NCBI RefSeq assembly: GCF_000469155.1
Contig: NZ_AWXE01000004.1
Coordinates: 620,001 to 684,000, forward strand
Length of the DNA stretch: 64,000 nucleotides
From: Candidatus Micropelagos thuwalensis
GTDB taxonomy: Bacteria > Pseudomonadota > Alphaproteobacteria > RS24
Direction: 5' to 3'
Shown here piece by piece: positions 30,596 through 55,269 of the stretch. Within the stretch, counting starts at the first letter, position 1, and the number at the start of each line of letters is the position of its first letter. Made by a program: the position numbers and the translations under genes. Under the pieces are notes generated by a model. The model made no database searches. It had not been told where the DNA came from and was given only the letters and a program-made list of their open reading frames with translations.

Positions 30596-30603
30596 GAGTG
30601 ATT

Positions 30604-31059
30604 ATGGCTGATAACAGTAAAATTGAAGTTCTTTGTGAGCGCGCCGGTATGCGCATGACGGGTCAGCGTCGTGTTATTGCTCGGATCCTGTCCGAGTCGG
30701 ATGACCATCCTGATGTTGAAGTGCTTCACCGCCGCGCCGTTCTCGAAGATTCGGGGATCTCAATCGCCACGGTTTATCGCACTGTCAAACTCTTTGAAGA
30801 AGCCGGCATTTTGACTCGCCATGATTTTGGAGATGGTCGCTCAAGATATGAGACGATCTCTGAGAATCACCATGATCACCTTATTGATTTGCAATCCGGA
30901 AAAGTTATCGAATTTTCAAATGATGCCATTGAAGAACTCCAGCGGCAAGTAGCAGAGAAGCTAGGATATAAGCTTATTGATCATAGGTTGGAGCTTTACG
31001 GTGTTCCGCTTGAACATGGAAAACCCGCAGGTGCTTCTGACGATAATCAAGATAGTTAA
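30604..31059 (+). CDS. fur: Fur-family metal-dependent regulator (Fur/Mur type)
   Basis: Winged-helix metalloregulator. The 151-residue protein has the DNA-binding region RMTGQRRVIARIL...SIATVYRTVKLFEEAGIL and the metal-site motif ENHHDHLIDLQSG. The CxxC structural zinc motif seen in many Fur proteins is absent. In Rhizobiales the gene at this position is Mur, a manganese sensor, while in others it is Fur, so the metal is uncertain. ATG 30604 follows AAGAG; GTG 30598 is possible. It lies in the conserved tsaB-rimI-fur-plsC-miaB order. Confidence 0.9.
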   Translation: MADNSKIEVLCERAGMRMTGQRRVIARILSESDDHPDVEVLHRRAVLEDSGISIATVYRTVKLFEEAGILTRHDFGDGRSRYETISENHHDHLIDLQSGKVIEFSNDAIEELQRQVAEKLGYKLIDHRLELYGVPLEHGKPAGASDDNQDS

Positions 31060-52209: not shown

Positions 52210-52650
52210 ATGGATAAGCTTAACACTCGAATAAATCAAAATGATAATTACCAATCACTCACCGATAAATTGCGAGGTGTTGGTCTGCGTGCAACACGCC
52301 AAAGGTTGGATATTGGAAGCCTTCTTTTTTCCGGAAAAGATCGTCATGTGACTGCTGAGAGCCTGCATGATGAGGCCGTGGCCTCGGGCATGAAAATTTC
52401 ACTGGCTACTATTTATAATGCTCTGAACCAGTTCACGGATGCCGGACTTCTGAGAGAAGTTTTGATTGATCCTTCTCGTACCTATTTTGATACAAATACG
52501 TCATCTCATCATCACTTTTTTAATATTGATAACGGTCAGCTGACAGATATTCCCAATGAAGAAATCAACCTTCCAGGTCTTCCTAACTTACCCGAGGGAC
52601 AGATTATTGATGGCGTGGATATTTTGATAAGAATTAAGCCTGAAGTCTAA
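52210..52650 (+). CDS. irr: Iron response regulator Irr (Fur family)
   Basis: Alphaproteobacterial heme/iron-status regulator that binds DNA under iron limitation. The 146-residue protein has the winged helix GLRATRQRLDIGSLLF...ISLATIYNALNQFTDAGLLREV and the His-rich site SSHHHFFN (His100-102) followed by the Irr-type ending LPNLPEGQIIDGVDILIRI. The N-terminal heme regulatory motif (GCPWHD-like) of Bradyrhizobium Irr is absent. ATG 52210 follows AGG; an in-frame TTG lies 15 bases up. Its position divergent from fabA-fabB supports the call. Confidence 0.94.
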   Translation: MDKLNTRINQNDNYQSLTDKLRGVGLRATRQRLDIGSLLFSGKDRHVTAESLHDEAVASGMKISLATIYNALNQFTDAGLLREVLIDPSRTYFDTNTSSHHHFFNIDNGQLTDIPNEEINLPGLPNLPEGQIIDGVDILIRIKPEV

Positions 52651-52657
52651 ATTATTT

Positions 52658-52676
52658 GTTTAGAATTGTTCTAAAC
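52658..52676. promoter_or_regulatory. Predicted Irr-box (iron control element)
   Basis: GTTTAGAATTGTTCTAAAC is an inverted repeat with perfect 8-base arms around TTG; its core TTTAGAA-N3-TTCTAAA fits the Irr-box (ICE) described in alphaproteobacteria. It starts seven bases after the irr stop and ends two bases before a TTGACA element that reads into the rubrerythrin gene. Confidence 0.72.
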
Positions 52677-52678
52677 TG

Positions 52679-52708
52679 TTGACATATCTTTCTCGAGACT
52701 TATATAGT
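52679..52708 (+). promoter_or_regulatory. Sigma-70-like promoter of the rubrerythrin gene
   Basis: TTGACA (52679-52684) is a perfect -35 element, followed by TATAGT (52703-52708, 18-base spacer) or TATATA (52701-52706, 16-base spacer) as -10. It gives a leader of about 75-80 bases to the rubrerythrin ATG and sits directly against the Irr-box. Confidence 0.65.
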
Positions 52709-52791
52709 TCCAATAAGAGTTAGGGAAAGGCCTTTCTCTTACTTATGAGCTTTTCGGATGGGCCGGAAAGCGTATTTAGAGGAAGATGATA

Positions 52792-53208
52792 ATGTCACTC
52801 GCAGATTCAAAAACTCTGGAAAACCTGAAGGACGCATTTGCCGGCGAAAGCCAAGCAAACCGTCGCTACCTTTACTTCGCACAAAAAGCCGATGTTGAAG
52901 GATATAACGATGTTGCAACTGTATTTCGTTCAACTGCTGAAGGTGAAACAGGCCACGCACATGGTCACCTCGAATTTCTAGAAGAAGTTGGAGATCCGGC
53001 AACTGGTGAGCCAATCGGTTCAACTGCTGAAAACCTGAAGGCCTCTATTGCTGGTGAAACACATGAGTATACAGACATGTATCCCGGCATGGCACGCACT
53101 GCACGTGAAGAAGGTTTTGATGAAATTGCCGATTGGTTTGAAACACTTGCCAAAGCAGAGAAATCTCATGCTGGCCGTTTCCAAAAGGCACTGGATTCAA
53201 TGGATTAA
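52792..53208 (+). CDS. Rubrerythrin-family diiron protein lacking a rubredoxin domain
   Basis: A 138-residue four-helix ferritin-like protein with the diiron ligand pattern of rubrerythrin: Glu19 (AGESQANRRY), Glu52 and His55 (EGETGHAHGH), Glu89 and Glu92 (AGETHEYT), Glu123 and His126 (AEKSHAGRF). The C-terminal rubredoxin domain (two CxxC) of classic rubrerythrin is missing; the protein has no cysteine. A peroxide-reducing role is inferred from family. AGAGGA at 52778-52783 favours ATG 52792 over ATG 52786. It is the first gene after the Irr-box promoter. Confidence 0.93.
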   Translation: MSLADSKTLENLKDAFAGESQANRRYLYFAQKADVEGYNDVATVFRSTAEGETGHAHGHLEFLEEVGDPATGEPIGSTAENLKASIAGETHEYTDMYPGMARTAREEGFDEIADWFETLAKAEKSHAGRFQKALDSMD

Positions 53209-53235: not shown

Positions 53236-53245
53236 TAGATTCAAG

Positions 53246-53274
53246 GAGACTATGGCGGCTAACGCCATAGTCTC
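53246..53274 (+). other. Strong 12-bp stem-loop between rubrerythrin and Fe-S protein genes
   Basis: GAGACTATGGCG (53246-53257) pairs perfectly with CGCCATAGTCTC (53263-53274) across a five-base loop GCTAA. No poly-T follows, so it is not a standard intrinsic terminator. GTCTCC at 53279-53284 could compete for GGAGAC (53245-53250), offering an alternative fold. Role unknown; mRNA processing or differential expression is inferred. Confidence 0.7.
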
Positions 53275-53310
53275 ACTTGTCTCCTATCTATATATAAAAA
53301 GGAACATCTC

Positions 53311-54663
53311 ATGAAAGAGGGCAGCACTGAAGCGCCAATTCGTTACCCTTTAGATTGGCATAACGAAGAATTTTATGACCGCGCAGCACTTGATGAAGAA
53401 GCGCGCCGTCAGTTTGATGTCTGTCATGGTTGCAGACGTTGCTTTAACCTCTGTGATAGTTTTCCACGCCTATTTGATCTCATCGACGAATCTGAATCTG
53501 GCGAACTTGATACGGTCGCGAGTGATGATTTTGGGCCGATTATTGACGGTTGTACCATGTGCGATATGTGCTTCATGACGAAATGCCCATATGTCCCGCC
53601 GCATGAATTTAACCTTGATTTCCCTCATCTTATGCTTCGCTATCGCGCTGTTGAATTGAAAGAAAAAGGCAAAGCCCCTTTCACACAAAACCAGCTTGCG
53701 CAGATGGACAGAAATGGTTCGCTTGCAGAAAAGGTGTCCGGTCTTGCAAATTGGGGATCTGCCAAAGGTAATGTTGTTACCCGTCCGGTTATGTCGGCGA
53801 CTTTGGGTATTGATAAGAATGTTGAGCTACCAAAATTTACTGGTGAGACATTTATGAAGCGTGCTGAAAAATCTGCCAAAAATGGCGAGTTGGAGCCCAA
53901 TAAAGAAGGCACTGCAAAAGACAGAAAAGCCCTTATCTATGCTACCTGCTCAGTTAATTATAATAATCCCGGCGTGGGCGAGGCAGCACTCAAAGTGCTT
54001 ACCCATCTTGGTGTTTCTGTGAAAACTGATTATCCGGGTTGTTGCGGAATGCCCTATTTAGAGCAAGGCAATCTTGAAAAAGTGGCTCAAAATGCGGCAA
54101 GTGTTTCCGCTGCTCTACGCCCTTTTATTGATGAGGGGTATGATATTTTAACTCTGACGGCAAGCTGTGGACTGATGTTCAAATTTGAATGGCCGTTAAT
54201 TGTACCTGATAACGAGGACGTTAAAGCGCTCAGTGCCGCGACGCGCGATATCAGTGAGTATATTGTTCAAATTGCCGATAAAAATGGTCTTCCAGACGGT
54301 CTGCAAACGATAGAAGGTGGCGTGCAGGTGCATCTGGCTTGTCATGCACGTGCCCAAAATATGGGGCCGAAATCAGCCGACCTATTGCGTCTCATTCCTG
54401 ATGCTGACATTGGTGTCATAGAGCGTTGCTCCGGCCATGGCGGTACCTTCGGTGTGATGAAAGACACCCATCAGCTTGCTGTCAAAGTCGGAAAACCTGT
54501 CGCCCGAAATGTTGCCAAATCTGAGGCTAAGACAGTTGTTTCAGACTGTCCGCTGGCGGCAAAACACATCGTTCAAGGAGTCGAATACTTAGACTCATCT
54601 GCAAAACTGCCGGAGGCCGCGCACCCTGTAGAGGTATTTGCGCGCGCTTACGGGTTAATATAA
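53311..54663 (+). CDS. Ferredoxin/CCG-domain iron-sulfur protein (GlpC/HdrD-like)
   Basis: A 450-residue soluble redox protein. Two [4Fe-4S] motifs lie near the N-terminus: Cys38, 41, 44, 48 (CHGCRRCFNLC) and Cys81, 84, 87, 92 (CTMCDMCFMTKCP, with a four-residue last gap). Two cysteine-rich CCG domains follow; the first has PGCCGMPYLEQG, while the second reads ERCSGHGGTFG, with Ser in the second Cys position. Related proteins include GlpC and heterodisulfide reductase subunits; the electron acceptor here is unknown. AAGGA precedes the ATG. The DUF3501 gene follows without a gap. Confidence 0.9.
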   Translation: MKEGSTEAPIRYPLDWHNEEFYDRAALDEEARRQFDVCHGCRRCFNLCDSFPRLFDLIDESESGELDTVASDDFGPIIDGCTMCDMCFMTKCPYVPPHEFNLDFPHLMLRYRAVELKEKGKAPFTQNQLAQMDRNGSLAEKVSGLANWGSAKGNVVTRPVMSATLGIDKNVELPKFTGETFMKRAEKSAKNGELEPNKEGTAKDRKALIYATCSVNYNNPGVGEAALKVLTHLGVSVKTDYPGCCGMPYLEQGNLEKVAQNAASVSAALRPFIDEGYDILTLTASCGLMFKFEWPLIVPDNEDVKALSAATRDISEYIVQIADKNGLPDGLQTIEGGVQVHLACHARAQNMGPKSADLLRLIPDADIGVIERCSGHGGTFGVMKDTHQLAVKVGKPVARNVAKSEAKTVVSDCPLAAKHIVQGVEYLDSSAKLPEAAHPVEVFARAYGLI

Positions 54664-54675
54664 ATGGAGAGTTTT

Positions 54676-55269
54676 ATGTCTGAAGCAAACAGAGTAATTA
54701 CCCCCGAAGATATTGTGCCAATGACCACTTACGTTGCTGAGCGTAAGGAAAGGCGTCAAGCTGTGCTTGCTCTAAAAAAACCGCGTCGGATTGAAATTGG
54801 GCCGGTCGCAACATTCTATTTTGAGAATTACGCGACAATGTTGGCGCAGATTCAGGAGATGCTTTACATCGAAAAAGGCGGTGACGAACAGCTTGAAGAT
54901 GAACTGACCGCTTACAATCCAATGATTCCGGATGGTTCCGAATTGACCGCAACTTTGATGTTTGAAATAGATGACCCGCAACGTCGCGGATCCATTCTGC
55001 GTCGCCTGACGGATGTTGAATTGACCGCTTATATAGAGGTGGCGGGTGAGAAGGTTTTTGCCGTTCCTGAGCAGGAAGTTGAACGCACAGCTTCTGACGG
55101 CAAGACATCATCTGTTCATTTTTTGCACTTTCCGTTTACGGCAGAGCAAATTGCGGCTTTCAGAGATACGAATAATCAAGCCATCCTAGGTATTGGTCAC
55201 GAGAATTACGCGCATATGACGATTTTGTCAGAGGAAACGCGCGCTTCGTTGGCTGGAGATTTTGCTTAA
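54676..55269 (+). CDS. DUF3501 family protein
   Basis: A protein of about 197 residues matching DUF3501, a family of unknown function: RVITPEDIVPMTTYVAERKERR, GPVATFYFENYATMLAQIQEMLYIEKGG, ELTATLMFEIDDPQRRGSILRRL and VHFLHFPFTAEQIAAF. No signal peptide, membrane helix or metal motif stands out. The frame opens at 54664 directly after the Fe-S gene stop, but GGAG at 54667-54670 favours ATG 54676. Constant pairing with the preceding Fe-S protein and rubrerythrin suggests a joint redox task (inference). Confidence 0.88.
   Translation: MSEANRVITPEDIVPMTTYVAERKERRQAVLALKKPRRIEIGPVATFYFENYATMLAQIQEMLYIEKGGDEQLEDELTAYNPMIPDGSELTATLMFEIDDPQRRGSILRRLTDVELTAYIEVAGEKVFAVPEQEVERTASDGKTSSVHFLHFPFTAEQIAAFRDTNNQAILGIGHENYAHMTILSEETRASLAGDFA

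Follow-up and report, generated by a model that had tools for sequence, protein, structure and literature searches.

Here, we analysed a window of 64,000 nucleotides from Candidatus Micropelagos thuwalensis and identified a perfect Irr-box that adjoins the promoter of a rubrerythrin (rbr) operon immediately behind irr. The order irr, box and rubrerythrin is not peculiar to this locus but is a class-wide arrangement in Alphaproteobacteria. The box, its geometry relative to the promoter, its conservation, its co-occurrence with irr and the classes of genes behind it were all established by computation. From its sequence and context, the cognate regulator of the box is most likely the adjacent Irr. 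We consider it probable that the box is an Irr operator at an operon composed of rbr, an Fe-S oxidoreductase gene (RFO) and a DUF3501 gene, and that Irr serves there as a local repressor of peroxide defence that is released by haem or peroxide. The best reading of Irr in this organism is a peroxide-defence regulator rather than a general iron regulator.

The Irr-box and the rbr promoter

The features of the locus are listed in Table 1. Two genes transcribed leftwards, fabB and fabA, precede irr, which is followed by the box, the promoter, rbr, the Fe-S oxidoreductase gene and the DUF3501 gene. The initial annotation, made from the sequence alone, had described a palindrome with 8-base perfect arms that ends two bases before TTGACA, with TATAGT 18 bases further on, and had placed the regulator gene seven bases upstream; all of this was exact to the base. 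The box begins 7 nt past the stop codon of irr (TAA, 52648-52650), and its 3' end is followed by TG, the -35 element (52679-52684), an 18-nt spacer and the -10 element (52703-52708). This promoter ranks best among the eight promoter-like sites of the region. With the transcription start predicted at approximately 52715, the box centre lies at about -48, roughly where it had first been put (about 45 bases before the start).

Table 1. Predicted features of the irr-rbr locus and the second Fur-family gene of the window
Feature	Coordinates	Strand	Remarks
Second Fur-family protein, Fur/Mur type	30598-31059		Only other FUR-domain protein in the genome
irr, Fur-family regulator (IrrA)	52213..52650	+	145 aa, without cysteine; NF045678, 185.9 bits
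Irr-box/ICE, GTTTAGAATTGTTCTAAAC	52658-52676	.	8-bp perfect arms, 3-nt spacer, centre 52667
Sigma-70 promoter of the rbr operon, TTGACA-18-TATAGT	52679..52708	+	11/12 consensus
Predicted 5' leader	52714..52795	+	Two tandem hairpins; fold z -2.9
rbr, aerobic-type rubrerythrin	52786..53208	+	Without rubredoxin domain; PF02915, 110 bits
Fe-S oxidoreductase (RFO)	53311..54663	+	PF02754; NF008369, 192.6 bits, under cut-off
DUF3501 protein	54664..55269	+	Third operon gene; PF12007, 202.8 bits

The site agrees with the Irr-box/ICE pattern TTTAGAA-N3-TTCTAAA without mismatch. Its 19-mer is present in a single copy and is absent from the dinucleotide-shuffled window, and the only exact match to TTAGAANNNTTCTAA in the 1.96 Mb genome is the irr-rbr box itself. 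A chance palindrome was ruled out by this uniqueness, by the zero count in shuffles and by the conservation across relatives, the nearest named ones being PS1-clade Alphaproteobacteria (MED-G50 and IMCC14465). A whole-genome scan found no other Irr site with fewer than two mismatches. Sites with two or three mismatches were fewer than in the reversed control (196 vs 365) and are therefore background. The idea that Irr has further targets here was rejected, the two-mismatch sites being located within coding sequences or before unrelated genes. One of them, TTGAGAATTATTCTCAA, is a Fur-type box preceding a TonB receptor gene. This perfect Fur-type palindrome (L048/L183, G000:C4:702036-702052) lies approximately 33 nt 5' of the TonB-dependent receptor gene.

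Distribution of the box in Alphaproteobacteria

A rubrerythrin search of species genomes yielded 80 loci from Alphaproteobacteria and some Gammaproteobacteria, and each was tested for a box within 250 nt, allowing up to two mismatches. The box was present in 40 of the 51 loci that had irr just upstream of rbr (0.11 in shuffles). It was also detected in six of the 29 loci without irr just upstream, including L078, where irr is further off, and five loci with variant palindromes (such as TTTAGACNNNGTCTAAA), mostly from Gammaproteobacteria. In irr-less alphaproteobacterial loci the box was essentially absent. When 24 genomes with irr-less loci were searched as a whole, an Irr-grade gene was identified in three, and the other 21 gave only Fur-grade matches or none. 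The box follows the presence of irr, and the two thus travel together, as expected for an operator and its regulator. The 80 loci share ancestry, and these counts represent non-independent events. Assignment of an Irr-type box to the rubrerythrin promoter, as originally suggested, is supported by the conserved arms and position and by the co-occurrence with irr. The locus was also thought to be unusually compact, which is not the case since the same order occurs throughout the class.

The core motif was found in 36 of 61 relatives, including most of the 28 genomes examined from the family of the window, and in nearly none of the reversed controls. In 13 rbr promoters of this family the TTAGAA/TTCTAA core and TTGAC were invariant, and the central bases and the outermost parts of the arms varied; the core was also nearly invariant in ten katG promoters.

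Two further observations were made on related sites. Several proteobacterial rbr operons, mostly from Gammaproteobacteria (L089, L108 and L131, also L106 and L128), have TTTAGACNNNGTCTAAA or a half-variant of it without an adjacent irr, and two genomes with such operons contain Irr-like genes elsewhere (L178 and L179). In addition, weak Irr-boxes are enriched before irr in many loci (four with two mismatches, 0.06 expected), hinting at autoregulation or control of fabA.

The rubrerythrin operon and its leader

Nearly all of the 80 loci have the Fe-S oxidoreductase gene linked to rbr, and in most of them the DUF3501 gene is linked as well. With these two neighbours and no rubredoxin domain, the operon of the window belongs to the aerobic-type rubrerythrin clusters. 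Translation of rbr probably starts at the ATG at 52792 (MSLADSK) and not at 52786. The leader had no match among known RNA families in Rfam; several sister genera show the same arrangement of two hairpins, mostly with a different sequence where tested. Between rbr and the Fe-S gene, a perfect strong hairpin without T-run (GAGACTATGGCG/CGCCATAGTCTC, 53243-53275) was observed in a 105-nt gap (fold z -8.5). It is kept in L053 and L054 and may set unequal expression inside the operon. Further downstream, one of the two Rrf2-family regulators of the genome (58835-59224, minus strand) adjoins a cysteine synthase-like gene.

Box-promoter geometry and the sign of control

We compared 49 promoters with a box, 41 of rbr and eight of katG. 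In 46 of them, the first T of TTGAC was 12-14 nt past the box centre (shuffled expectation 0.6), and -10 elements were 16-19 nt beyond the -35 element. These spacings place the box centre near -48, and the fixed distance means that the box borders the -35 element on its upstream side in all promoters of the set. Spacing this rigid points to a direct relationship with RNA polymerase, in which the enzyme is either excluded or contacted. Rhodobacter ccpA conforms to the same rule, its transcription start being approximately 40 nt past its Irr-box, as in the window (PMC3413700).

Repression and activation had both been left open by the initial annotation; the evidence now favours repression, without settling the question. 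The preference is based on the near-consensus promoter, on a second box at peroxiredoxin genes and on precedents in R. sphaeroides and Bradyrhizobium. In some sister genomes (such as those of genus g6), some peroxiredoxin promoters contain, besides the box at its customary position, a second one immediately past the likely -10 element, which is a typical repressor position. Irr of R. sphaeroides binds ccpA and mbfA, both of which are higher in an irr mutant at low iron (PMC3413700), and in B. japonicum mbfA and bfr are repressed by Irr, which undergoes degradation in response to H2O2 (PMC4902296).

On the other hand, Irr bound at about -48 might make contact with region 4 of sigma or with the C-terminal domain of alpha and act as an activator, so that rbr would be elevated when haem or iron is low. 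We regard this as unlikely, though deserving serious consideration. Irr is known to activate many promoters (PMC7762939), and the strict 12-14 nt spacing, rigid across the class, is equally expected of a contact-dependent activator and counts against repression. Moreover, in microarray data the rbr transcript of Pelagibacter was 1.57-fold higher under iron limitation (PMC2864753), which argues against simple repression at low iron. However, typical activator-dependent promoters do not have a near-consensus -35 element, some peroxiredoxin promoters also have a box near the transcription start, and R. sphaeroides ccpA, which has a similar geometry, is higher in the low-iron irr mutant (PMC3413700).

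Targets in the family and exchange of peroxidases

In the 28 genomes sampled from the family of the window, 30 core boxes were identified. Peroxide-defence genes were located behind 27 of these: rbr (11), katG (10), a Prx5-like peroxiredoxin gene (5) and dps (1), the last one being a 51-aa partial match at the edge of a contig that scored 22.4 bits (cut-off 24.5). The remaining sites (G002, G004 and G005) are a single orthologous position where a coding sequence ends and were dismissed.

Rubrerythrin was found in 11 genomes and katG in 14, and none of the 28 had both (hypergeometric 1.7e-5, kinship left uncorrected). In two genera (g3 and g4), both the rbr and the katG state occur at the same position behind irr, implying that replacement behind the operator took place more than once. 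In G006, katG is on a different contig and has its own one-mismatch box. Two genomes (G008 and G021) lack both genes, and G008 also lacks a core box; they are counted against the explanation we prefer. Separately, G026 contains a divergent katG without Irr-box (L173:3074-3484), with a PerR-like Fur-family gene beside it.

In view of these targets, the initial description of an iron-control locus is doubtful, since boxes of the family mark peroxidases and a dps, although haem or iron may still provide an input through Irr. A strict version of the iron view, in which Irr reports haem status, rubrerythrin is an iron-handling protein and peroxide is irrelevant, seems to us rather improbable. It is in line with haem sensing by Irr in the rhizobia studied (PMC7762939), with the ferritin-like nature of Dps and rubrerythrin and with the invariant HxH motif of Irr. 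It is difficult to reconcile with the catalase-peroxidase and peroxiredoxin targets of sister genera, or with the TonB receptor gene, which is preceded by a Fur-type palindrome (one of the two perfect ones of the genome) and not by an Irr-box.

Irr as a putative sensor

Both gene names given initially, irr and rubrerythrin, were upheld by profile searches (NF045678 and PF02915). Irr of the window scored over the curated IrrA cut-off (185.9 bits vs 150) and slightly below that of NF045677 (168.8 vs 170), and it was below the cut-offs of PerR models, the best being 64.6 bits for PerRB (cut-off 250), and NF052545 giving 47.5 (cut-off 180).

In an alignment of 78 Irr sequences, H45, N69, D93, H99, H101 and D112 showed no variation. 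H45, D93, H99, H101 and D112 correspond to the His, Asp, His, His and Asp ligands of a PerR-type metal site, H99-x-H101 forms the HxH haem motif, and N69 sits in the recognition helix. The own Fur of the genome has Glu, Glu and Arg where Irr has D93, D112 and N69. Irr has no cysteine; the cysteine zinc site of PerR is therefore absent, and so is the cysteine-based haem regulatory motif of the Bradyrhizobium type, and the HxH site remains. The B. subtilis Per box is TTATAATNATTATAA, from which the consensus of the boxes, TTAGAATNATTCTAA, is one symmetrical change apart. Matching of Irr ligand residues to PerR numbering follows common background on PerR and PMC8638967, where the PerR features of an Asp in the site and an Asn in the helix had already been noted for Irr. 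No OxyR-grade protein was detected in the 28 family genomes (best 58.6 bits vs a cut-off of 329, for a model tuned to enteric OxyR), and the best match in the genome of the window reached 28 bits and was confined to the DNA-binding part.

Binding of the palindrome by the Fur/Mur-type protein instead of Irr is very improbable: no FUR-domain protein besides these two is encoded in the genome and Fur-type boxes are palindromes of similar form, but the box tracks irr and not fur, irr-less alphaproteobacterial loci lack the box although their genomes give Fur-grade matches, and the recognition helix has Asn in Irr and Arg in Fur. A role of the palindrome as an RNA hairpin, for instance as a terminator of irr, is hardly credible, for although it lies 7 nt 3' of irr and is able to pair, it lacks a T-run and any terminator match, folds no better than shuffles (z +0.78), has unpaired outer arms in several sister genera that keep TTAGAA/TTCTAA, and recurs at peroxiredoxin genes distant from irr.

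With Irr as a peroxide-defence repressor, we infer the binding of Irr in the window, the sign of control and the inducing signal as follows. An Irr dimer would bind the palindrome with its centre near -48, next to the -35 hexamer, and would most likely hold back RNA polymerase. Irr would come off when its HxH/PerR-like metal site binds haem and/or is oxidized by peroxide, and rubrerythrin peroxidase would be made in response to rising levels of peroxide or reactive iron. In this family, Irr would be a small local regulator with PerR-like logic, whose main target, rbr or katG, could be swapped behind the same operator.

Comparison with known systems and implications

Irr, ICE boxes, the rubrerythrin cluster and the resemblance of Irr to PerR are already known. 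Irr/ICE systems of Bradyrhizobium and Rhizobium (mbfA, bfr) have the same regulator family and box type, targets that include ferritin-like or rubrerythrin-like proteins, and an Irr that is removed by haem and H2O2 (PMC7762939; PMC4902296). However, Irr controls many iron genes there, whereas the window genome has one strong site, beside irr, and its Irr, unlike that of Bradyrhizobium, lacks the cysteine-based haem regulatory motif. R. sphaeroides is similar in that its Irr has few boxes, one of them before a peroxidase gene with a start about 40 nt past the box, and an irr mutant is more resistant to H2O2; the peroxidase there is a cytochrome c peroxidase, and the part of PMC3413700 consulted shows no target linked to irr, in contrast to the irr-linked rubrerythrin here. 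PerR regulons share peroxidase, katG and dps targets, metal-site residues and the helix Asn with the Irr of this family, but the window protein scores as Irr and lacks cysteines for a structural zinc site. The aerobic-type cluster rbr-RFO-DUF3501 (PMC5114695) has the same three genes and no rubredoxin domain; that text mentions neither Irr nor PerR, and the linkage of irr, box and rbr is an addition of this study. Within the literature searched, which does not extend to the main Irr regulon papers (Rodionov et al., 2006; Rudolph et al., 2006), we found no description of the class-wide linkage, of the fixed -48 geometry or of katG and rubrerythrin replacing each other behind the box.

A broader proposal, which we advance tentatively, is that in marine Alphaproteobacteria lacking OxyR, Irr became, or always was, the regulator of the peroxide response. 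It would be a PerR-like switch whose operator is fixed at -48, and operator and regulator would have been retained as the peroxidases behind them, diiron rubrerythrin and the unrelated haem catalase-peroxidase, were exchanged. This would represent a clean natural case of enzymes being replaced behind a conserved operator. It also suggests that the ancestral job of Irr was perhaps peroxide defence, global iron control being a rhizobial extension. If true, this would provide a testable peroxide-defence circuit for the ocean clades covered by this analysis (PS1, SAR116 and Pelagibacterales), few of which have genetics.
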